Positions 30,416-39,232 of a stretch of DNA of 39,234 nt are shown here, one piece after another. The DNA lies in the NCBI GenBank assembly GCA_007125005.1, contig SLDY01000133.1:1-39234 (forward strand), read 5' to 3'. Under the pieces are notes generated by a model. That model made no database searches. It was given only the letters and a program-made list of their open reading frames with translations, and had not been told where the DNA came from. The first letter of the stretch is position 1. The number at the start of each line of letters is the position of its first letter. The DNA is from Natronohydrobacter sp. (GTDB taxonomy: Bacteria; Pseudomonadota; Alphaproteobacteria; Rhodobacterales; Rhodobacteraceae). Both the position numbers and the translations under genes were made by a program.

Positions 30416-31192
30416 TCAGCTTTTGCGCTGGCCCTCGAAAGCTTGCAGGCGCACGCCCTCCTTGCTCAACGCTTCATGGAGCGCGCGTGCCAGGGCCACG
30501 GCACCTGCTGTATCGCCATGCAGGCAGATTGTATCTATCTGCGCGGTAAGATGCGTGCCTTGCGAAGTAATGATGGCCCCAGCGCGCAGCATCGCAAGGA
30601 TGCGGGCGCAGACCGCGTCCGCGTCATGAATCACTGCTCCGGGCAGGCGACGATCCATCAGCAGGCCATCCTCGGTATAGGCGCGATCTGCGAAAATCTC
30701 ATGTGCCATGCGGGCATCAAGGCTATGCGCGGCGCGCGCTTGTGCCGTGCCTGAAATCACCATCAGAATGATCTCCGGGTCGACTGTCAGCGCGCCTTCA
30801 TAAGCAGCGCGGGCCAGTGCCTCGTCTTCCGCAGCCATATTCGCGAGCGCGCCATGCAGCTTGAGATGGCGCACCTGCCCTCCTGCCATCCGCGCCATCG
30901 CGCGCGCTGCGCCGAGTTGATAGGCAACAAGATTGCGCGCTTCGTCATGCGTTATCTGCATGCGCCGACGACCAAAACCCTGAAGGTCGGGTAACCCCGG
31001 ATGCGCCCCGATTCCGACGCCATTTGCGACAGCAACTTTCATCGCCTGCGCCATCACATCCGGATCGCCAGCGTGAAACCCGCAGGCGATATTGGCCGAG
31101 GTGATGATCTTCAGAAGATCGGCATCGGCACCCATCGGCCAGGGGCCGAAGCTTTCGCCCATATCAGCGTTCAGATCGATCTGTGCTATCAT
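30416..31192 (-). CDS. pxpA: 5-oxoprolinase subunit A (LamB/YcsF family)
   Basis: One of three subunits of the prokaryotic ATP-dependent 5-oxoprolinase, which opens 5-oxoproline (pyroglutamate) to L-glutamate. The 258-residue product has the LamB/YcsF signature DLNADMGESFGPWPMG, SANIACGFHAGDP, GIGAHPGLPDLQGFGRR, VRHLKLHGALANMA and FADRAYTEDGLLMDRRLPGA. Its start overlaps the pxpC stop by 4 bases. It is the last gene of the pxpB-pxpC-pxpA operon. Confidence 0.95.
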   Translation of the reverse strand: MIAQIDLNADMGESFGPWPMGADADLLKIITSANIACGFHAGDPDVMAQAMKVAVANGVGIGAHPGLPDLQGFGRRRMQITHDEARNLVAYQLGAARAMARMAGGQVRHLKLHGALANMAAEDEALARAAYEGALTVDPEIILMVISGTAQARAAHSLDARMAHEIFADRAYTEDGLLMDRRLPGAVIHDADAVCARILAMLRAGAIITSQGTHLTAQIDTICLHGDTAGAVALARALHEALSKEGVRLQAFEGQRKS

Positions 31193-32208
31193 CGGGTTGT
31201 CCTTTCAAGTTCGTCGCCGCAGCTCACACCGCCAATCAGTTGATAAGCCAGCAGATCCTGTATGTCATGCGGGTCGCGGATGAGCGGGCGCAGTTGTTTG
31301 GGTAAGTCGGCGCGACGGCTGGCTGCGTCGCGCTCAAGCGCGACTGCCTCCTCCAACGTGACAAATTCGAAACGCAGCGCCACTGTGGCAGGGGCCTGAA
31401 CAAGCCGCGGCAGGTCACAGGGCAGAACAGTTCCGATGCGTGGATAGCCACCGGTTGTCTGGCATTCTGCCAGAAGCACAAATGGCGCGCCGTCCCCTGT
31501 GATCTGTATGTCGCCGGGTACGATGGTTTCAGAAAGTATGCGTAACCCTGCCTCAAGCTTGAAATCAGCCTCATCGCAGACAAGCCGTTGGCCCATGCGA
31601 TTGCCGCGCGCGTCCTTGTGGAAGATCGTACTTGTGAAGCGCTGCAACTGACAGTCGGAGAAGAGATGTGACTGTGGGGTCTTGACCAGACGCAAGGCTC
31701 CGCCATCAAATCGCGCTTCTGGCGTAAAGGTGAGCCCCGTGCGATTTCCGCTGTCCTCGCCAAGTGCGAGCCGCGTGCCAGCCTCAAGCATTCTAAGAAT
31801 ACCTGCCGCCAAATGGGCGGAGCGCGCCCCGAGAGCTGCCTCGCTCGAAACACCGCCGCCAAAATGCAGGTAACTGTATCCTCCGACGGGCGCGCCAAGC
31901 TCAAACATTGCGCCGGCGGGCAAGGCGTGGCTCGCGTTCCAAGTGAGTTCCGAGCCATCGCAGCGCGCCCGCATCCTGGCCCCCGTAACTGCAATCCGCG
32001 TCGGCGCGGTTACTTCCAGGGTAAGAAAACTGCCAGCGATCTCGATTGCGGCCAGGCTTGGATCCTGCCCCAGCAGAGCTGCGCCTTCAGCCATGGCAAG
32101 CAGATCTGCGGCTCCGCCACGCGACAGGCCCTGCGCCAGATATCCCTGTCGTCCCTGATCCTGAACTGTGACACCCGGCCCGACGCGATGGAGGATGACC
32201 TCTGGCAT
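31189..32208 (-). CDS. pxpC: 5-oxoprolinase subunit C (KipA-type carboxyltransferase-like)
   Basis: A 339-residue member of the biotin-dependent carboxyltransferase-like (KipA/AHS2) family that works with PxpA and PxpB. It begins with VGPGVTVQDQGRQGYLAQGL SRGGAAD (two adjoining blocks). LGAPVGGYSYLHFGGGVSSE and FVLLAECQTTGGYPRIGTVL are the late AHS2 blocks. It has no biotin site. It shares one base with the pxpB stop and 4 bases with the pxpA start, so all three are translationally coupled. Confidence 0.94.
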   Translation of the reverse strand: MPEVILHRVGPGVTVQDQGRQGYLAQGLSRGGAADLLAMAEGAALLGQDPSLAAIEIAGSFLTLEVTAPTRIAVTGARMRARCDGSELTWNASHALPAGAMFELGAPVGGYSYLHFGGGVSSEAALGARSAHLAAGILRMLEAGTRLALGEDSGNRTGLTFTPEARFDGGALRLVKTPQSHLFSDCQLQRFTSTIFHKDARGNRMGQRLVCDEADFKLEAGLRILSETIVPGDIQITGDGAPFVLLAECQTTGGYPRIGTVLPCDLPRLVQAPATVALRFEFVTLEEAVALERDAASRRADLPKQLRPLIRDPHDIQDLLAYQLIGGVSCGDELERTTR

Positions 32209-32963
32209 CAGCGCTGCCCCTCCGATTTCGCCCCGCCATCCGGGTCGTTAGAGCGGATCTGCTCCAGTTCCGCATCCGAAACTCTCTGAAACAAGACTTC
32301 ATCACCGGGGCGCAGCAGGAATGGTGTGTCTTGCTCGGGGCGAAAAAGGCGCAGGGCCGTCTGCCCGACATGCCGCCAACCTGTTGGTGTGCTCACCGAA
32401 AACAAGACGACCTGACGAATCGCTACCACCAAAGCACCTTCGGGCACGCGCGGAGATAGATCCGTCTGGCGCGGGATGTCCCATTCTGGTGGCAGCGCGC
32501 CCAGATAAGGTTGGCCCGGTGCAAAACCAATTGTCTGCACACGCAAAGGTGCTGCGCAGATTGCGGCAATCGCAGTTTCAGGTGCAAGGCCCGCAAGTTC
32601 TGCTGCTGCACCCAGTTGCGGCCCGTTTTCGCCCCCAAACGCCGCTGGCACATACCACCGACGCCGACCTTCGGGCACTGGCGCGTCATACCAGTCGCGC
32701 TGGGTTAACAACGTGTTCAGTGTTGTTTGCAATGTTGCATGATCGGTTCGTGCAAGATCGAATCGTACAAACACCGAGGTCAAGGAGGGGGCTGTTTCTT
32801 TAAGCCCTGTCGGGTCTGCCGACTCAATCGCGGCGCGGAAAGCCAGCGCGGCGCGATTCGCTGGTTCAGTCAGTTTCGCTCCAAAGCTTACAAGAAAACC
32901 GTCCACACCCAGCGTAGTGATTGCCGGGAATTGGGGTGTTTGCGGTTTCAGGTGCTGGTTCAT
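32208..32963 (-). CDS. pxpB: 5-oxoprolinase subunit B (KipI-type)
   Basis: Subunit of the 5-oxoprolinase complex, from the KipI/AHS1 family. The 251-residue product carries VDGFLVSFGAKL at the start and TIGFAPGQPYLGALPPEWDI, the AHS1 hallmark (usual form GFxPGFxYL). Near the end are RQVVLFSVSTPTGWRHVGQT and FLLRPGDEVLFQRV. ATG 32963 is chosen because the family block starts soon after it; the frame is open back to 33044, but that part runs into the shared operator region. It is first gene of the operon, divergent from the TRAP receptor gene. Confidence 0.92.
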   Translation of the reverse strand: MNQHLKPQTPQFPAITTLGVDGFLVSFGAKLTEPANRAALAFRAAIESADPTGLKETAPSLTSVFVRFDLARTDHATLQTTLNTLLTQRDWYDAPVPEGRRRWYVPAAFGGENGPQLGAAAELAGLAPETAIAAICAAPLRVQTIGFAPGQPYLGALPPEWDIPRQTDLSPRVPEGALVVAIRQVVLFSVSTPTGWRHVGQTALRLFRPEQDTPFLLRPGDEVLFQRVSDAELEQIRSNDPDGGAKSEGQR

Positions 32964-33021
32964 GGCTGCTTTATGACTGATTTCGGGGCAACAAAACCCT
33001 GCATTCTGGCGCTTCATGAAA

Positions 33022-33057
33022 AAACGTTGACGAAATGACGACATAATGTCAACGTTT
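33022..33057. promoter_or_regulatory. Operator-like dyad between pxpB and the TRAP receptor gene
   Basis: AAACGTTGAC (33022-33031) is the exact inverse complement of GTCAACGTTT (33048-33057), 10 bases per arm with a 16-base spacer. The centre adds further partly symmetric bases (ATGACGACAT). Each arm holds a TTGAC core that could be a -35 for its side. One dimeric or tetrameric regulator could control both divergent operons; the MarR-like product of 35990-36520 is a candidate. Confidence 0.65.
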
Positions 33058-33101
33058 ATTCCGCACCATCTTTCAAGGGTGCCAGAACAGGGAGTTCAGA
33101 A

Positions 33102-34073
33102 ATGACCATTCGTGCAACACTTGCAGGCGTTGCTATCGCGCTGACAGCAGCCCCCGCCTTTGCTCAGACAACTTGGGACATGCCCACTCCATACGGTGAT
33201 GCAGTGTTCCACACGCAGAATATCATGGCCTTCGCAGATGATGTGCGCGCTGCAACTGATGGCTCGCTCGATATTACAGTGCATTCTGCAGGTTCGCTGT
33301 TTGCCCATGGCCAGATCAAGGATTCTGTCCGCCGCGGTCTTGCACCCATCGGCGAAATCCTGATGTCGCAACTGGTCAATGAAAATCCCGTCTTCGGCGT
33401 TGACAGCATTCCATTCCTCGCGGCCAGCTATGACGAGGCTGAAGCGCTCTGGGCTGCATCGCGCGAGGCGGTGTCGGACGCGCTGGAAGCGCAGGGGCTG
33501 ACGCTGCTGTTCTCGGTCCCGTGGCCCGGCCAGTCGCTCTTCCTGCGCGAGGAAGTGACGGATCCCGCACAGCTTCAGGGCGTGAGCTTCCGTGCCTATA
33601 ACAACGCCACCGAACGCATGGCGCAGCTTCTGGGCATGATCCCGACACAGGTCGAAGCCGGCGATATTCCAACCGCGTTCAGCACGGGGCGCGTGGCCTC
33701 AATGATCACCTCACCCTCAACCGGGGTATCGTCACAAGCCTGGGATTATACCAGCCATTATATCGACGTGCAGGCATGGTTGCCAAAGAACATGATCTTC
33801 GTGAACTCCGCTGCTCTGCAAGGCCTGACCGAAGAGGAGCGCAACGCCGTTCTGGCGGCTGCCGAGGCTGCCGAGGCCCGTGGCTGGGAGATGTCGCGCG
33901 CCGAGACTGATACGCAAATCGCGGCCCTCGAAGCGGCTGGCATGGTCGTGATGCAACCCTCCGAAGCGCTTGCCGCGCGTCTGTCGGAGATCGGGGAAAT
34001 CATGGCTTCCGAGTGGCTTGAGCAAGCCGGAGATTCCGGCGCTGCTATCCTCGAAGCCTTTCGCGCCGAGTAA
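33102..34073 (+). CDS. TRAP transporter substrate-binding protein (DctP family)
   Basis: Periplasmic receptor of a tripartite TRAP transporter. The 323-residue product has a clear Sec signal peptide cleaved after AFA at residue 21. Conserved DctP features include HTQNIMAFADDVRAATDGSL, VRRGLAPIGEILMSQL, and the carboxylate-binding Arg at about 164 in LQGVSFRAYNNATERMAQLL. The family typically binds organic anions. Divergence from the 5-oxoprolinase genes suggests pyroglutamate or a related compound as ligand, a precedent being the Bordetella DctP6/DctP7 receptors. GGGAG precedes the ATG. A terminator follows before the membrane subunits. Confidence 0.92.
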   Translation: MTIRATLAGVAIALTAAPAFAQTTWDMPTPYGDAVFHTQNIMAFADDVRAATDGSLDITVHSAGSLFAHGQIKDSVRRGLAPIGEILMSQLVNENPVFGVDSIPFLAASYDEAEALWAASREAVSDALEAQGLTLLFSVPWPGQSLFLREEVTDPAQLQGVSFRAYNNATERMAQLLGMIPTQVEAGDIPTAFSTGRVASMITSPSTGVSSQAWDYTSHYIDVQAWLPKNMIFVNSAALQGLTEEERNAVLAAAEAAEARGWEMSRAETDTQIAALEAAGMVVMQPSEALAARLSEIGEIMASEWLEQAGDSGAAILEAFRAE

Positions 34074-34082
34074 ATGAAGGAC

Positions 34083-34112
34083 AGGCAGGGCATCACTACC
34101 CTGCCTTTTTTC
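34083..34112 (+). terminator. Partial terminator between receptor and membrane-subunit genes
   Basis: AGGCAGGG (34083-34090) pairs with CCCTGCCT (34099-34106) over an 8-base loop and runs into six T. Placed between dctP-type and dctQ-type genes, it would let the receptor be made in excess over the membrane subunits. It ends 22 bases before the next start. Confidence 0.8.
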
Positions 34113-34134
34113 CTCACACCGAATGGAGGTCAAG

Positions 34135-34689
34135 ATGCGCAAGGCCCTCGATGGATTGTACAGCAGTGGGCTCGTCCTTGCCTGTCTGGCTATGGTGATC
34201 ATTGCAGCAATGGTTCTGACCCAAATCATGGGTCGTGTGCTGGATCGGGCGCTGGTCATCTTCGGTGCACAACCTCTGGGCTTTACCATTCCCTCCCTTT
34301 CGGATTTCGGCGGATTTCTGTTTGTTGCCGCTGCTACGCTCGCGCTTCCTGCCACGCTGCGGGCAGGGGGGCATGTGCGCGTCAGCCTTCTGCTGAGGGT
34401 TGGAGGGCCATGGGTGCAGCGCAGCCTGATGGTTCTCGTGCTGATTGCAGCACTGGCGCTTGCCGGCTTCGCAGCCTGGCATTCCGGGGCACAAGCGCTC
34501 GATAGCTGGCGCTTCAATTCGGTCTCCTTCGGCATGGTGCGCGTGCCGCTCTGGATCCCGCAAGGGGTAATGACACTGGGCTTCGTGCTTCTGGTCGTAG
34601 CGGTTCTGGATGAACTCCTCGCAGCACTGCGCGGGCGTGATCCGGCCTTCCAGCAAGCCGAAGAAGCGCGCGACAGCGGGGGGCACTGA
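34135..34689 (+). CDS. TRAP transporter small membrane subunit (DctQ family)
   Basis: A 184-residue membrane protein with four hydrophobic helices (LVLACLAMVIIAAMVLTQIM; FGGFLFVAAATLALPATL; LMVLVLIAALALAGFAAW; VMTLGFVLLVVAVLDELL), the standard DctQ topology. GGHVRVSLL in the loop is the usual conserved block. ATG 34135 is preferred because GGAGG is 5 bases upstream; an ATG at 34123 would lie ahead of that site. Its stop shares one base with the DctM start. It links receptor docking to the large subunit. Confidence 0.9.
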   Translation: MRKALDGLYSSGLVLACLAMVIIAAMVLTQIMGRVLDRALVIFGAQPLGFTIPSLSDFGGFLFVAAATLALPATLRAGGHVRVSLLLRVGGPWVQRSLMVLVLIAALALAGFAAWHSGAQALDSWRFNSVSFGMVRVPLWIPQGVMTLGFVLLVVAVLDELLAALRGRDPAFQQAEEARDSGGH

Positions 34690-35993
34690 TGGATCTGCTC
34701 ACGCTTTCGATCATACTTGTCATTGTCCTATTCGGCTTTTTGCTGGCAGGGCTCTGGGTTGGCTTCTCGCTGATGGCGGTCGCGTTCGTCGCGATGGAAC
34801 TGACACGCCCCGGCCTTGCTGGCGCGGTTTTTGCGACCAAGGTCTGGGGGTCGCTCAATGTCTGGGATCTCACAGCGCTGCCCATGTTCATCTGGATGGG
34901 CGAAATCCTCTTTCGCTCGCGCCTCTCCTCCGATCTCTTTCGAGGTCTTGCGCCCTTCACGCGGCGTCTGCCGGGCGGGCTATTGCACGCCAATATCCTT
35001 GGCTGCGCGCTCTTTGCCGCTGTCTCGGGGTCTTCGGCGGCGACCACAGCGACTGTGGGGCGCATGTCACTGCCAGAACTGAAATCACGCGGTTACGACT
35101 CCAATATCGCTATCGGAACGCTTGCGGGCGCGGGAACATTTGGTTTTCTGATCCCGCCCTCGATCATTCTGATTGTCTATGGCGCGGCGACTGAACAAAG
35201 CATCGCGCGGCTGTTTCTTGCAGGCGTCGTACCGGGGCTGATGCTTGCTGGTCTTTTTGCAGGCTATGTAATGCTCTGGGCGCTCTTCAACCGTGACAAG
35301 TTGCCCGCGCCGGAACCTGCGCCGAGCTGGGCCATGCGCTGGGATGCGATCAAGGCGCTTGGGCCGACAGTAGCGTTGATCATCGCAGTCATCGGCTCGA
35401 TCTATGCAGGGCTTGCCTCACCTACTGAGGCAGCTGTGATCGGGGTGGTGGGCGCGCTGATGATCTCCGGTTTATCGGGCGGGCTTGATCGGGCAAGCGC
35501 ATGGGCGAGTTTGCGCGGGGCAGCCATGACCACCTGCATGATTGCCTTCATCCTCGCTGGCGCGTCTTTCCTGACCGTGGCAATGGGTTATACCGGCATC
35601 CCGCGTTTTCTGGCGCAATGGATCGGTGCACAGGGGTATTCGCAATTCACGCTCTTGGCAGCGCTGCTGGTGTTTTTCATCGTGCTGGGTTTCTTCCTTG
35701 ATGGTATCTCGATCGTTGTGCTGACGACATCGGTGATCCTGCCTATGGTCATGGCCGCAGGGATCGACCCGATCTGGTTTGGTATCTTCCTCGTGCTGGT
35801 GGTGGAGATGAGTCAGATCACGCCGCCGGTCGGGTTCAACCTCTTTGTGTTGCAGTCCATCACCGGGCGCGGCATTTTCCAGATCGCGCGTATGGCTTTG
35901 CCTTTCTTCCTGATTCTGGTGCTGGCCACCGCGATCCTGTCCATATTCCCGGAGATTGCCCTGTGGCTTCCAAACACGATGCTGAACCGATGA
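34689..35993 (+). CDS. TRAP transporter large membrane subunit (DctM family)
   Basis: A 434-residue polytopic protein that carries out Na+-driven transport. DctM features include LPMFIWMGEILFRSRLSSDL, GGLLHANILGCALFAAVSGS followed by SAATTATVGRMSLPEL, and GTLAGAGTFGFLIPPSIILI. Late blocks are GLASPTEAAVIGVVGAL and EMSQITPPVGFNLFVL. All are hallmark substrate/sodium-site segments. It overlaps the DctQ stop by one base and the regulator start by 4 bases, completing the operon. Confidence 0.95.
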   Translation: MDLLTLSIILVIVLFGFLLAGLWVGFSLMAVAFVAMELTRPGLAGAVFATKVWGSLNVWDLTALPMFIWMGEILFRSRLSSDLFRGLAPFTRRLPGGLLHANILGCALFAAVSGSSAATTATVGRMSLPELKSRGYDSNIAIGTLAGAGTFGFLIPPSIILIVYGAATEQSIARLFLAGVVPGLMLAGLFAGYVMLWALFNRDKLPAPEPAPSWAMRWDAIKALGPTVALIIAVIGSIYAGLASPTEAAVIGVVGALMISGLSGGLDRASAWASLRGAAMTTCMIAFILAGASFLTVAMGYTGIPRFLAQWIGAQGYSQFTLLAALLVFFIVLGFFLDGISIVVLTTSVILPMVMAAGIDPIWFGIFLVLVVEMSQITPPVGFNLFVLQSITGRGIFQIARMALPFFLILVLATAILSIFPEIALWLPNTMLNR

Positions 35994-36520
35994 CACCGCC
36001 AAGACCGATCATACCGGATATTGGCCCGGTGGTCAGTTCGGCGCATCTGGCCTCCTCCTCGCTGCCCGCACTCTCGGAGGTGGAGTTTGCCCTGACCATG
36101 GCTAACAATGCCTTCCACCGCTGGATGGTGCGGTGCATGACAGCCTCTGGTATGCCGGGCCTCTCGCCGTTGGAGGTGTTGATCGTCCATCTGGTGAACC
36201 ATCGTGATCGCCCCAAGACGCTTGCCGATATCTGCCTCGTGCTGAATATCGAAGACACGCATCTGGCCAATTACGCGATCAAGAAGCTCGAGTCGCATAA
36301 GCTTGTAAAATCAGGGCGCAAGGGCAAGGAAAAAACAGTCACGATTTCCGCCGAAGGTGCCCGACTTTGTGCTCGCTATGCAGAGATTCGTGAGGCGCTG
36401 GTGGTCCGTGCGGCGCGGCAGATGGGGCATGACCCGGCCGATATCAGCCGAATGGCAGCACTTCTGCGCACGCTTTCCGGGGCCTATGATCAGGCGGCGC
36501 GTGCGGCAGCAGCCCTATAG
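35990..36520 (+). CDS. MarR-like winged-helix regulator of the TRAP/5-oxoproline unit
   Basis: A 176-residue transcription factor. Winged-helix elements are LSPLEVLIVHLVNHRDRPKT, then LADICLVLNIEDTHLANYAI, KKLESHKLVKSGRKGKEKTV and TISAEG, with a C-terminal dimerisation helix. ATG 35990 overlaps the dctM stop as ATGA; a GTG at 35963 is an alternative. As the last gene of the TRAP operon it is the likely local regulator. The dyad at 33022-33057 is its most plausible binding site. Ligand unknown; 5-oxoproline or glutamate would fit. Confidence 0.85.
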   Translation: MTPPRPIIPDIGPVVSSAHLASSSLPALSEVEFALTMANNAFHRWMVRCMTASGMPGLSPLEVLIVHLVNHRDRPKTLADICLVLNIEDTHLANYAIKKLESHKLVKSGRKGKEKTVTISAEGARLCARYAEIREALVVRAARQMGHDPADISRMAALLRTLSGAYDQAARAAAAL

Positions 36521-36686: not shown

Positions 36687-36704
36687 GCACGCCGCATGGC
36701 GTGC
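36687..36704 (+). other. Hairpin in the phoR leader
   Basis: GCACGCC (36687-36693) pairs perfectly with GGCGTGC (36698-36704) over GCAT. No T-run follows, so it is not a terminator. It lies in the roughly 170-base untranslated leader between the Pho box and phoR. Confidence 0.4.
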
Positions 36705-36769
36705 TATTCATGTCGTGTCGGCAGTGTGGATCGGCAGCACCGATAGCGACGGGCTGGCATAGGTTGGAG

Positions 36770-37801
36770 ATGACGGATAGCGCAACGCACGCACTTATCT
36801 CGGCGCTGCCGCAGCCGATATTGCTGATAAACCGCGAAGGCATGGTCGAAATCGCCAATCAGTCTGCGCGCGAGTTATTCGGCGCGCGTATCCAGCATGC
36901 ACAGATCCGTGCGCATTTGCGTCAGCCAGAGGTCGCGGCCATGCTTGAGCGGGTCCTGGCCGGCAAGAGCGAAGACAGCGCCAATTTTGTCATGGCCACC
37001 GGCAATCATGAAACCATCTGGCGGGTGGTCGCCCGCAATGGTGTCGCGGGTATGTTTGTGCTGTCTTTCAGCGATATATCAGACATCGAGGCAGCCGAAG
37101 CGCAGCGGCGTGACTTCGTGGCCAATGTGAGCCATGAGCTGCGCTCGCCATTGACTGTGCTTGTGGGGTTTATCGAAACCTTGCAGGGCCCTGCTGGCGA
37201 AGACCCGGTCGCGCGGGCCGAGTTTCTTGGCATAATGTCAGAGCAAGCCGCGCGGATGAGCGGGCTTGTGGCAGACCTGCTCTCGCTCAGCCGGGTGGAG
37301 GCGGTCGAGAAGATCCGTCCGCGGACACCCGTCTGCCTGGATGCGGTGCTGAAGGCTACCTTGGCGGCACTGCGCCCACAGATCGAAGCTGCAGGAATAT
37401 CGATAAACTACGATGTCCCGGAGGGCTTGCCGGATATCCCCGGAGATTACGATCAACTTGTGCAGGTGTTTCACAATCTGGTTGAAAACGCGTTGAAATA
37501 CGGTGCGACAGGTGGGCGCGTCGATATCTCGGCAACGCATGTGCCGATGTTTCCAGCCCATCAGGGGCCTGTGCTTCGCGTAAGTATCCGCGATTACGGA
37601 GAGGGCGTTGATCCGATTTACATCCCCCGCCTGACAGAGCGGTTCTACCGTATCGACAAAGCACGCTCGCGAGACAGCGGCGGAACCGGACTTGGGCTTG
37701 CCATCGTCAAGCATATTCTCAGCCGCCATCGTGGGCGCTTGGTTATCCGTTCCGCGCTGGGCGAAGGTGCAAGCTTTGATGCGGTCTTGCCGCTTACATG
37801 A
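36770..37801 (+). CDS. phoR: Phosphate-regulon sensor histidine kinase PhoR
   Basis: A 343-residue kinase that controls PhoB by phosphorylation and dephosphorylation. An N-terminal PAS domain (ALPQPILLINREGMVEIANQ) is followed by the HisKA helix with His122 in FVANVSHELRSPLTVLVGFI. The HATPase domain carries the N box in FHNLVENALKYG, the G1 box in VSIRDYGEGVDP and the G2 box in RDSGGTGLGLAIVKHILSRH. No membrane helix is seen, unlike E. coli PhoR. ATG 36770 is chosen because the PAS-like sequence begins there and AGG lies upstream; open frame extends to 36701. phoU follows after 22 bases. Confidence 0.92.
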   Translation: MTDSATHALISALPQPILLINREGMVEIANQSARELFGARIQHAQIRAHLRQPEVAAMLERVLAGKSEDSANFVMATGNHETIWRVVARNGVAGMFVLSFSDISDIEAAEAQRRDFVANVSHELRSPLTVLVGFIETLQGPAGEDPVARAEFLGIMSEQAARMSGLVADLLSLSRVEAVEKIRPRTPVCLDAVLKATLAALRPQIEAAGISINYDVPEGLPDIPGDYDQLVQVFHNLVENALKYGATGGRVDISATHVPMFPAHQGPVLRVSIRDYGEGVDPIYIPRLTERFYRIDKARSRDSGGTGLGLAIVKHILSRHRGRLVIRSALGEGASFDAVLPLT

Positions 37802-37823
37802 ACACACCAAGAGGATAAGAGCC

Positions 37824-38531
37824 ATGAAACCCCACACACTCTCCGCTTTCGATCGTGATCTTGAAACGATACGGCTGTCAGTTCTGACCATGGGCGGTCA
37901 GGTTGAGGCCGCGATACTTGATGCCTCGCGTGCGCTTGACAGTCGCGACGAGGATCTTGCCGCTCAGGTTGTGCAGGGCGACAAGCAGATTGATGCGGCC
38001 GAAGAAGAGATCAACGCTCAGGTCGTCCGTCTGCTGGCGCTGCGCCAGCCGCAGGCGGATGACCTGCGCTCGGCAGTGGCGGTCATGAAGATGGCGGGTG
38101 AGTTGGAGCGGCTGGGCGATTATGCCAAGAACATGGCCAAGCGCGTGCCGGTATTGATCGCCGCACCCACAATCGAGGGTGCCGCGAGCGCCTTGCGGCG
38201 CCAGGCGCGGCTGGTAGGGCAGATGCTCAAGGACATGCTCGACGCTTTCGCGCGTTTGGATGCCACGCTTGCCCGTGATGTCATCGCACGCGACATTGAG
38301 GTCGATGACATGACCAATGCGCTCTTTCGCGAGTTCATCACCCATATGATGGAAGACCCCCGCAATATCACGCCATGTCTGCATTACGTCTTCATTGCCA
38401 AGAATATCGAACGGATGGGCGATCTGGTGACGCATGGTGCCGAACAAGTCATCTTCGTGGTCGAGGGGCGGCTTGCCGAGGCCCGCGAGAAAGGTCACTC
38501 GACAGCCACGATAGAGGCACCAAAGGAATGA
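37824..38531 (+). CDS. phoU: Phosphate-signalling regulator PhoU
   Basis: A 235-residue all-helical protein of two PhoU repeats that links the Pst transporter to PhoR. The first repeat contains QVVQGDKQIDAAEEEINAQV and MKMAGELERLGDYAKNMAKR. The second contains VIARDIEVDDMTNALFREFI and YVFIAKNIERMGDLVTHGAE, which carry the paired E/D-xxR-xGD metal motifs. GAGG precedes the ATG by about 8 bases. It lies directly between phoR and phoB; the pstSCAB genes usually found in this position are missing here. Its stop overlaps the phoB start by 4 bases. Confidence 0.95.
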   Translation: MKPHTLSAFDRDLETIRLSVLTMGGQVEAAILDASRALDSRDEDLAAQVVQGDKQIDAAEEEINAQVVRLLALRQPQADDLRSAVAVMKMAGELERLGDYAKNMAKRVPVLIAAPTIEGAASALRRQARLVGQMLKDMLDAFARLDATLARDVIARDIEVDDMTNALFREFITHMMEDPRNITPCLHYVFIAKNIERMGDLVTHGAEQVIFVVEGRLAEAREKGHSTATIEAPKE

Positions 38532-39232
38532 CAGCGATGAGCGAAGTCAACACTCCTCTGGTTCTGGTTGTCGATGATGAACCTGCCCAGCTTGCACTCC
38601 TGAGCTATAATCTCAAGGCTTCCGGGTTTCGCGTCGCGACTGCGAAAGACGGTGAAGAAGCGCTTCTGGTGGTTGCTGAACAGGGACCAGATGTTGTGTT
38701 GCTGGATTGGATGTTGCCAAGGCTTTCGGGTTTGGAAGCCTGTCGGCAGATCAAATCCACCAGCGCTGGGCGTGATGCCGCCGTGATAATGGTCTCTGCA
38801 CGATCGGAGGAAAGTGATCGTATTCGCGGGCTCGATACCGGGGCAGATGATTACATCGTCAAACCTTATTCCGTGGCAGAACTCATTGCCCGGGTGCGCG
38901 CCAATCTCCGCCGTTTGCGCCCTGTCAGTGCCGGGGAGGTGCTGCAGATCGGCGATATCCGGCTGGATGCCGATAGTCATCGCGTCACCCGTGCGGGCAA
39001 GAGCCTGCATCTTGGCCCCACGGAATTTCGCCTGCTTGCCGCATTCATGGAGCGCCCCGGCAAGGTCTGGACCCGCGATGCGTTGCTCGACCGCGTCTGG
39101 GGGCGCGATGCCTATATCGACACGCGGACAGTGGATGTCCATGTCGGGCGTCTGCGCAAAATACTTTGCACCACAGGCGGGGCAGACCCGATCCGGACTG
39201 TGCGCGGCGCAGGCTATGCGCTGGGCGAATAA
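38528..39232 (+). CDS. phoB: Phosphate-regulon response regulator PhoB
   Basis: A 234-residue OmpR-type response regulator that activates Pho-box promoters. The receiver has Asp16-Asp17 in VLVVDDEPAQ, phospho-acceptor Asp60 in VVLLDWMLPRLSG, the Ser in VIMVSARSEE, and Lys in DDYIVKPYSVAEL. The effector winged helix runs from GDIRLDADSHRV through KSLHLGPTEFRLLAAFMERP to VDVHVGRLRKIL and TVRGAGYALGE. ATG 38528 overlaps the phoU stop as ATGA; ATG 38537, with AAGGA upstream, is an alternative. It is complete, ending two bases before the window edge. Confidence 0.96.
   Translation: MTAMSEVNTPLVLVVDDEPAQLALLSYNLKASGFRVATAKDGEEALLVVAEQGPDVVLLDWMLPRLSGLEACRQIKSTSAGRDAAVIMVSARSEESDRIRGLDTGADDYIVKPYSVAELIARVRANLRRLRPVSAGEVLQIGDIRLDADSHRVTRAGKSLHLGPTEFRLLAAFMERPGKVWTRDALLDRVWGRDAYIDTRTVDVHVGRLRKILCTTGGADPIRTVRGAGYALGE

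Follow-up and report, generated by a model that had tools for sequence, protein, structure and literature searches.

A MarR-like regulator and its candidate operator accompany predicted 5-oxoproline utilization units with exchangeable enzymes in proteobacteria

5-Oxoproline arises spontaneously from glutamate and glutamine, and a locus of the alphaproteobacterium Natronohydrobacter sp. raises the question of how its uptake and breakdown might be placed under a dedicated regulator. In the 39,234-nucleotide stretch that we analysed (contig SLDY01000133.1, hereafter the window), ORF and family scans bear out the preliminary description of a reverse-strand pxpB-pxpC-pxpA set diverging from forward-strand dctPQM genes and a MarR-like gene (Table 1). 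That description read the locus as a 5-oxoproline uptake and catabolism unit with its own regulator. Our comparisons support this reading through the solved relatives of its DctP receptor (2pfy/2pfz), two unrelated kinds of oxoprolinase, a candidate transporter and a shared operator, and the PxpABC-DctPQM-regulator unit very probably serves the import and breakdown of 5-oxoproline under a single dedicated regulator. According to the authors of PMC13274462, the bacterial control of 5-oxoproline had not been studied before 2026.

Table 1. Features of the predicted 5-oxoproline unit, in window coordinates
Feature	Coordinates	Strand	Basis
pxpA, 5-oxoprolinase subunit A (LamB/YcsF)	30416..31192	-	Pfam PF03746, 314 bits; NCBIfam NF003814, 342 bits
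pxpC, 5-oxoprolinase subunit C (CT_A_B)	31189..32208	-	Pfam PF02626, 188 bits
pxpB, 5-oxoprolinase subunit B (CT_C_D)	32208..33044 (longest ORF)	-	Pfam PF02682, 169 bits
Candidate operator between the two gene sets, where the MarR-like regulator would bind	33022..33057		Palindrome AAACGTTGAC-N16-GTCAACGTTT
dctP, TRAP solute receptor, 2pfy/2pfz subfamily	33102..34073	+	Pfam DctP; phmmer against PDB
Terminator-like hairpin between dctP and dctQ	34083..34106	+	Stem AGGCAGGG/CCCTGCCT and T run
dctQ, small TRAP permease	34123..34689	+	Pfam PF04290
dctM, large TRAP permease	34689..35993	+	Pfam PF06808, 294 bits; TIGR00786, 360.8 bits
MarR-like (HTH_27 winged-helix) regulator	35963..36520	+	Pfam PF13463, 68 bits (cut-off 22.2)

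Translational coupling had been proposed throughout each half. It holds for pxpB/pxpC (TGATG), pxpC/pxpA (ATGA), dctQ/dctM (TGATG) and the overlapping dctM/regulator junction, where the regulator starts at GTG 35963 or at ATG 35990 (ATGA overlap), and fails for dctP/dctQ, which are separated by a 49 nt gap containing a terminator-like hairpin. As the number of hairpins alone is at chance level (4 in the scanned region versus 5.7 expected), the case for this element rests on its recurrence in relatives, a strict stem with a T run being found at 19 of 48 dctP-dctQ junctions, the window's included. A promoter scan of the region recovered two sigma-70-like sites versus 2.2 expected, none of them between the divergent genes. 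The true start of pxpB is probably ATG 33017 or 32963 instead of 33044: the latter would put the first codons of the longest ORF within the palindrome, and the alignments of all 19 relatives with more than 55% identity (the window's own row not counted) begin at residue 19 or later.

The regulator contains a winged-helix DNA-binding domain, with HTH_27 above its cut-off. We term it MarR-like because the MarR_2 model scores 22 bits, under its cut-off of 27, and no NCBIfam model matches; a sequence search against solved structures returned nothing at E 0.1. Outside the window we recovered 37 relatives in 100 genomes and fetched the surroundings of 34 (all but G066:C1, G093:C18 and the G066:C232 fragment). 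A 5-oxoprolinase lies within about 4 kb of the regulator in 28 of these (20 PxpABC, 8 OPLAH), and contig ends truncate four of the remaining six. Among 93 distinct regulator loci, 80 have an oxoprolinase in the stretch (35 PxpABC, 45 OPLAH); this set excludes L001-L032 (short copies of the genome-search matches), near-identical regulators and the later L147-L182, with L180-L182 and the loci of the phylum survey below counted apart. A neighbourhood unique to this genome had been set beforehand as the outcome that would speak against the unit; instead, at least 12 of the 36 genomes from the same genus share the pxp-TRAP-regulator block, and in two of them (L113 and L121) pxpA lies beyond the contig end. 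One full block (L089) also holds an FAD oxidoreductase gene.

PxpABC and OPLAH are both 5-oxoprolinases (PMC13274462), and PxpA, PxpB and PxpC show no significant similarity to OPLAH (best E 0.33). On a regulator tree of 59 rows (at most three per 85% cluster, length at least 140 aa, loci without an enzyme in view left out of the label count) the enzyme label changes seven times between PxpABC and OPLAH, and at least five of these changes are forced by well-supported branches. Judged by these sequence comparisons, what stays constant in the units is the regulator, while the enzymes swap.

The associations of the regulator extend further. In a Klebsiella plasmid and three further genomes a relative stands beside DUF969-DUF979-DUF2891 genes, which are divergent from it. 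When the corresponding genes (cj0552-4) were mutated in Campylobacter, the strain failed to grow on 5-oxoproline in a preliminary test (PMC12795558). These are probable 5-oxoproline uptake genes; they belong to transporter families unrelated to that of the window unit, which has no DUF969/979/2891 genes. Of the 29 strong relatives of the regulator that a survey of 299 genomes in the phylum turned up, 12 have no oxoprolinase next to them: three adjoin DUF969/979, three adjoin TRAP genes and an FAD oxidoreductase, and one adjoins TRAP genes (L158); TRAP genes lie 4.3 kb (L154) and 1.4 kb (L155) off in two more, and none of these neighbours is present in L150, L156 and L157. Neighbours were read from coordinates for 17 of the 29 (with PxpABC represented by the PxpA search only) and from fetched DNA for 12; as at most two OPLAH candidates were scored per genome, the OPLAH survey can miss paralogues, and the 12 were decided by fetched DNA. 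Of 11 weak matches to the regulator, the six that were fetched (30-32% identity) have neither such a neighbour nor the operator. Plasmid records with a regulator match number 132, and three of the eight opened lack such a neighbour (L106, L109 and L182). In L033 the TRAP genes, operator and regulator are present with a LysR gene upstream in place of the enzyme. An exclusive link of the regulator to TRAP genes is ruled out by the TRAP-less arrangements, and one to oxoprolinases by the 12 of 29 relatives above.

What, then, might the unit carry and sense? The TRAP set is complete, with DctP, DctQ and DctM all found by Pfam. The best solved relatives of DctP in a phmmer search of the PDB are 2pfy (3.2e-80), 6wgm (2.3e-75) and 2pfz (1.1e-65), with the next match at 3.7e-11. 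We take 2pfy to be Bordetella DctP7 and 2pfz to be DctP6, which on this identification places the window receptor in the same subfamily as those of B. pertussis. The structures of DctP6 and DctP7 were solved with 5-oxoproline bound (PMC13274462), and pyroglutamate is also given as the ligand of these receptors in PMC5812351. As far as the accessible part of PMC13274462 goes, their genes lie near a eukaryotic-type 5-oxoprolinase gene, a different type from that found here, no MarR-like regulator is described and use of 5-oxoproline is not demonstrated.

It is unlikely, though worth weighing, that the transporter and the regulator act on a compound closely related to 5-oxoproline, such as a different lactam, a hydantoin, a proline derivative or a D-amino acid, with oxoprolinase as one of several downstream enzymes. 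OPLAH-type proteins share a family with caprolactamase and hydantoinases, L053 contains an amidohydrolase, and L147, L148 and L149 combine TRAP genes with an FAD oxidoreductase, joined in L147 and L149 by a mandelate-racemase-like gene. However, 5-oxoproline is the substrate common to PxpABC, OPLAH and DUF969/979, the nearest solved relatives of DctP are, on the above identification, pyroglutamate receptors, and the FAD oxidoreductase may be accessory, since it also occurs inside the full block L089.

The palindrome between the divergent genes does not figure in the preliminary description. It extends over 33018-33061, with 14-nt arms that are 93% complementary. Inspected by eye as a promoter pair, it was rejected, the TTGAC arms having no good -10 partner. 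The exact pattern GTTGAC-N16-GTCAAC has a single site genome-wide, namely that of the window. With up to two mismatches it occurs 77 times per strand genome-wide versus 95 for the reversed control, and because this loose pattern is indistinct from chance we assign no additional members to the regulon in this genome. One further exact match, at C71:16574, exists for the shorter TTGAC-N16-GTCAA; we take it as chance because the reversed control also yields one per strand.

Comparison across loci is more telling. When each whole locus is scored with a matrix built from 15 PxpABC-type sites only, the top match falls in the target region, upstream of the genes, in all 45 OPLAH loci (1.14 expected), in 18 of 20 further PxpABC loci and in 7 of 13 loci without an enzyme in view; five of the six misses in this last group show no more than 24 bp of that region, and the remaining one is L106. 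With one locus per regulator cluster, the count is 24 of 24 for OPLAH versus a mean of 5.2 (maximum 20) for 200 column-permuted matrices. Matches are weak throughout in Chromobacterium (about 6 to 16), and a convincing operator is absent from the fetched stretches of L150 and L154-L157 (best 0.3 to 11.7).

We consider it very improbable that the palindrome serves some other regulator, the MarR-like gene being a mere passenger of the TRAP operon. The link between the two is drawn from sequence comparison. In favour of such a reading, among 15 PxpA- or OPLAH-matching stretches without an adjacent regulator, taken from regulator-bearing genomes, L168 and L169 have a partial match shortly upstream of a pxp operon among their two best, with the regulator elsewhere in the genome. 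Against it, the palindrome accompanies the regulator where TRAP genes are missing, where the other enzyme is present and where the other transporter is; in the remaining 13 stretches the two best matches fall within or behind the genes, are over 1 kb upstream or have negative scores; and the six weak regulator relatives lack operator and neighbours alike. A dedicated 5-oxoproline regulator with its candidate operator is, on these comparisons, well supported.

The three subunits (LamB/YcsF, CT_A_B and CT_C_D) are encoded together. PxpA exceeds two NCBIfam subfamily cut-offs (including NF003814, cut-off 226 bits) and falls below all three PxpA equivalog cut-offs, while PxpB (TIGR00370, 107 bits, cut-off 145.6) and PxpC (equivalog model, 148.6 bits, cut-off 500) likewise stay under theirs. 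That the set is another carboxyltransferase-like enzyme, as these equivalog scores and a second, unlike set in the same genome with biotin carboxylase and biotin carrier genes might hint, is most improbable given that ORF and Pfam scans show no biotin carboxylase or carrier gene beside the window set, that PxpA clears the two subfamily cut-offs and that OPLAH and PxpABC repeatedly replace each other under the same regulator.

The reading that we favour is 5-oxoproline utilization under a dedicated regulator, and we put the probability of the whole model at roughly 0.78. The DctPQM transporter would bring in 5-oxoproline (pyroglutamate), which PxpABC would turn into glutamate. The MarR-like protein, encoded at the end of the transporter operon, would occupy the palindrome at 33022-33057, most likely repressing both divergent operons and hence its own gene, and would release it when 5-oxoproline enters. 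The sequences themselves show which genes are present, how the two operons diverge, where the palindrome lies and that it is conserved along with the regulator when arrangements differ, as well as the enzyme swaps; from these features we infer binding of the regulator to the palindrome, 5-oxoproline as both regulator ligand and transporter substrate, and repression as opposed to activation.

A comparable unit is pxpTABC/PxpR of Corynebacterium glutamicum, described in PMC13274462, which likewise combines dedicated uptake, PxpABC catabolism, a local regulator and a palindrome between divergent genes; PxpR proved to be a repressor that binds 5-oxoproline with a KD of 726 nM. There, however, the regulator is of the GntR type and the transporter belongs to the APC superfamily, in contrast to the MarR-like protein and TRAP transporter here, and the site agattgttcaacaatct differs from the window palindrome. 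While this GntR-type unit is on record, we found no description of a 5-oxoproline unit with a MarR-type regulator in the open-licence literature, among the matches listed, in agreement with the preliminary description.

More broadly, we lean towards the view that 5-oxoproline use in proteobacteria is built around this regulator and its operator as an invariant core, into which unrelated enzymes (PxpABC and OPLAH, with at least five exchanges) and transporters (TRAP and DUF969/979) are plugged. In alpha-, beta- and gammaproteobacteria it would then be the regulator, more than enzyme or transporter, that marks the pathway. A second regulator family, unrelated to the GntR type and with a candidate operator that can be read from sequence, yields a specific prediction for many proteobacteria. 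It also offers a handle for naming genes that are still uncharacterised, among them those annotated as 'winged helix DNA-binding', DUF969/979 or OPLAH-type, and might serve as a 5-oxoproline biosensor. These units would present a clear case in which a regulator-operator pair is retained as non-homologous enzymes replace one another under its control.

ORF and family scans of the window show a minus-strand pxpB-pxpC-pxpA set and a plus-strand dctP-dctQ-dctM-regulator set, with a single intergenic region between the divergent halves, bearing out the arrangement given in the preliminary description. Its further claim of coupling throughout each half holds for pxpB/pxpC, pxpC/pxpA, dctQ/dctM and dctM/regulator, which display stop/start overlaps, and fails at dctP/dctQ, the sole junction without overlap, where a 49-nt gap contains a terminator-like stem. 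The regulator contains an HTH_27 winged-helix domain (Pfam, 68 bits) and misses the MarR_2 cut-off, making MarR-like the accurate name for it; sequence searches recovered no relative of it among solved structures. Directly downstream of the unit (window 36701-39232) lie a histidine kinase gene (PAS, HisKA, HATPase) and then PhoU-like and response-regulator-like genes, the latter two called by eye on ORF translations.

Features located in the unit
Feature	Position (window)	Location
palindrome AAACGTTGAC-N16-GTCAACGTTT	33022-33057	between the divergent genes
terminator-like stem-loop	34083-34106	dctP-dctQ junction

The stem-loop between receptor and permease genes recurs in position across the TRAP operons of relatives, with varying sequence. 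A strict stem with a T run is seen in 19 of 48 dctP-dctQ junctions (the window unit and its relatives), and all 48 junction stretches fold at -18.8 kcal/mol or below, as raw values read without a shuffled control. In the scanned region overall, terminator-like stems are not in excess (4 found versus 5.7 in shuffles). The dctP-dctQ stem would permit receptor production above the permease level.

A search of 100 genomes, the window's own and its relatives, recovered 38 regulator matches, the window's included, in 33 of them. DNA was fetched around 34 of the 37 non-window matches: PxpABC is encoded within about 4 kb in 20, and a single-chain OPLAH-type 5-oxoprolinase in 8. The remaining six comprise four contig-cut loci (L112, L116, L130, L132), L118 with TRAP genes and no enzyme, and L143, where the regulator match is at 35% identity and none of the query genes is in the stretch. 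The PxpABC loci show three recurrent layouts: 1) pxp divergent from dctPQM-regulator, as in the window; 2) pxp divergent from the regulator alone; 3) dctPQM-pxp divergent from the regulator. Since the first is found in 12 or more of the 36 genomes from the same genus (in two of these pxpA falls past the contig end), it is not unique, and the neighbourhood is not confined to one genome, the outcome that the preliminary description would have counted against itself. One genome (G019) has three regulator copies, on contigs C223, C262 and C130, respectively with pxp and TRAP genes (L115), TRAP genes only (L118) and pxp only (L129).

Screening a one-genome-per-species collection yielded 72 loci; the comparison set, with the relatives and five plasmid records added, came to 93 distinct regulator loci. 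PxpABC is present in 35 (22 with TRAP genes) and OPLAH in 45 (20 with TRAP genes); 13 have neither enzyme in view, 8 of them contig-cut. Both OPLAH proteins tested for them (L105, L107) contain hydantoinase/oxoprolinase domains, and the one compared (L107) has no significant similarity to PxpA, PxpB or PxpC. Models for caprolactamase and acetophenone carboxylase likewise hit the three OPLAH proteins examined with them, under their cut-offs, so the exact OPLAH substrate is to be named with caution. A tree built from 59 regulators shows 7 switches of enzyme label, at least 5 of these forced by well-supported branches, and 10 switches in TRAP-gene presence.

Of 132 plasmid records with a regulator match, 8 were inspected: OPLAH lies by the regulator in L105, L107 and L108, dctPQM-pxpBCA in L180 (Leisingera), and DUF969-DUF979-DUF2891, per the plasmid's own annotation, in L181 (Klebsiella), while L106, L109 and L182 have none of OPLAH, PxpABC, TRAP or DUF969-DUF979-DUF2891 annotated. 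In L108 (4189-15508, Phyllobacterium) ABC transporter genes and an M14 peptidase come after the OPLAH-regulator pair, a possible link of the unit to peptides.

A profile search of 299 genomes across the phylum separated 29 strong regulator matches (at least 207 bits) from 11 weak ones (at most 107 bits) by a clear gap. Seventeen strong matches, the window counted, have an oxoprolinase gene no more than about 4 kb away (OPLAH in 11, PxpA in 6). DNA fetched around the other 12 showed that L151-L153 adjoin DUF969-DUF979-DUF2891, L147-L149 TRAP genes and an FAD oxidoreductase, and L158 TRAP genes; L154 and L155 have TRAP genes 4.3 kb and 1.4 kb off, and L150, L156 and L157 have no oxoprolinase, DUF969-DUF979-DUF2891 or TRAP genes in the fetched DNA. 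Among the six weak relatives fetched of the 11, none has an oxoprolinase, TRAP or DUF969/979 neighbour. According to PMC12795558, a Campylobacter mutant in the corresponding DUF969-DUF979-DUF2891 genes lost growth on 5-oxoproline in a preliminary experiment. In Chromobacterium, PxpABC and DUF969-DUF979 are united beside the regulator, which is divergent from pxpBCA then DUF969-DUF979 in six of seven loci, the seventh being contig-cut. An FAD-dependent oxidoreductase (DAO family) lies between regulator and dctP in L147, L148, L149, L062 and L089, in the last within a full pxp-TRAP-regulator block, and could widen the pathway to take in a D-form or a proline relative; L147 and L149 also have a mandelate-racemase-like gene on the regulator's far side.

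The exact core of the palindrome, TTGAC-N16-GTCAA, recurs at pxpB/dctP, pxpB/regulator and OPLAH/dctP gaps and, in one locus (L107), at the OPLAH/regulator gap; exact GTTGAC-N16-GTCAAC occurs once in the window's own 2.83-Mb genome, at the window site. We ran a 34-bp matrix, derived from 15 PxpABC-type sites only, on the remaining 78 distinct loci, scoring the best match of each entire locus against a target region of non-coding DNA up to 300 bp upstream of enzyme, dctP or regulator. The best match falls there in all 45 OPLAH loci (1.14 expected by sequence share). For PxpABC loci the count is 18 of 20, the two misses (L096, L097) being Chromobacterium loci with weak sites, and for loci with no enzyme in view it is 7 of 13. 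When each regulator cluster is represented by a single locus, the OPLAH count is 24 of 24; 200 column-permuted symmetric matrices averaged 5.2 and never exceeded 20. The proposed operator is likewise the best match in the Leisingera plasmid locus (31.0) and the Klebsiella locus (23.5), and not in L182. No convincing site was found in L150 and L154-L157, where oxoprolinase and transporter genes are absent or TRAP genes only distant. Among 15 control stretches in which PxpA or OPLAH is matched and no regulator adjoins, several being PxpA alone or looser gene sets, partial sites lie shortly upstream only in L168 (13.2) and L169 (15.1). These two are pxp operons with DUF969/979 in genomes that have their regulator homologue elsewhere, in L154 beside a purL-like gene, and they may be controlled in trans. 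Some sites resemble half-sites repeated in 11-bp steps (second-best matrix matches), a hint that an operator may take up more than one dimer.

A sequence search against PDB recovered 2pfy (3e-80), 6wgm (2e-75) and 2pfz (1e-65) as the top relatives of DctP, the next being at 4e-11. Of these, 2pfy is DctP7 and 2pfz DctP6 of Bordetella. According to PMC13274462, both receptors were solved with 5-oxoproline, the affinity of DctP7 for it is 0.3 uM, and their genes lie near a eukaryotic-type 5-oxoprolinase gene; PMC5812351 concurs on the ligand. The window's PxpA passes two NCBIfam subfamily cut-offs and no equivalog cut-off, and PxpB and PxpC score under theirs; judged by sequence, this PxpABC is a divergent branch, and we infer its 5-oxoprolinase activity from the trio, its context and the swaps with OPLAH. 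Elsewhere in the same genome is a distinct, unlike set (L144, contig C98, 3258-11276) combining LamB/YcsF, biotin carrier, biotin carboxylase, CT_C_D and CT_A_B genes with a sugar-type ABC transporter; PxpABC-type domains are probably reused here in a biotin-dependent carboxylase or carboxyltransferase system.

The unit is most likely governed by a repressor-operator switch: the regulator would occupy the palindrome, shutting off both operons, its own gene included, and entry of 5-oxoproline would release it. Alternatively, the regulator may activate instead of repress. A repressor-operator switch would follow the same logic as the GntR-type PxpR of Corynebacterium, as shown in PMC13274462, with unrelated parts. 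Among the matches listed for open-licence PMC literature on 5-oxoprolinase, pyroglutamate/DctP/TRAP, MarR, winged helix and DUF979, we found no description of this regulator. The comparative evidence supports, and allows one to strengthen, the original reading of a 5-oxoproline uptake-and-catabolism unit with its own regulator. Dedicated 5-oxoproline units are already known as a type of system; what is new is the regulator and its operator, constant across exchanged enzymes and transporters.
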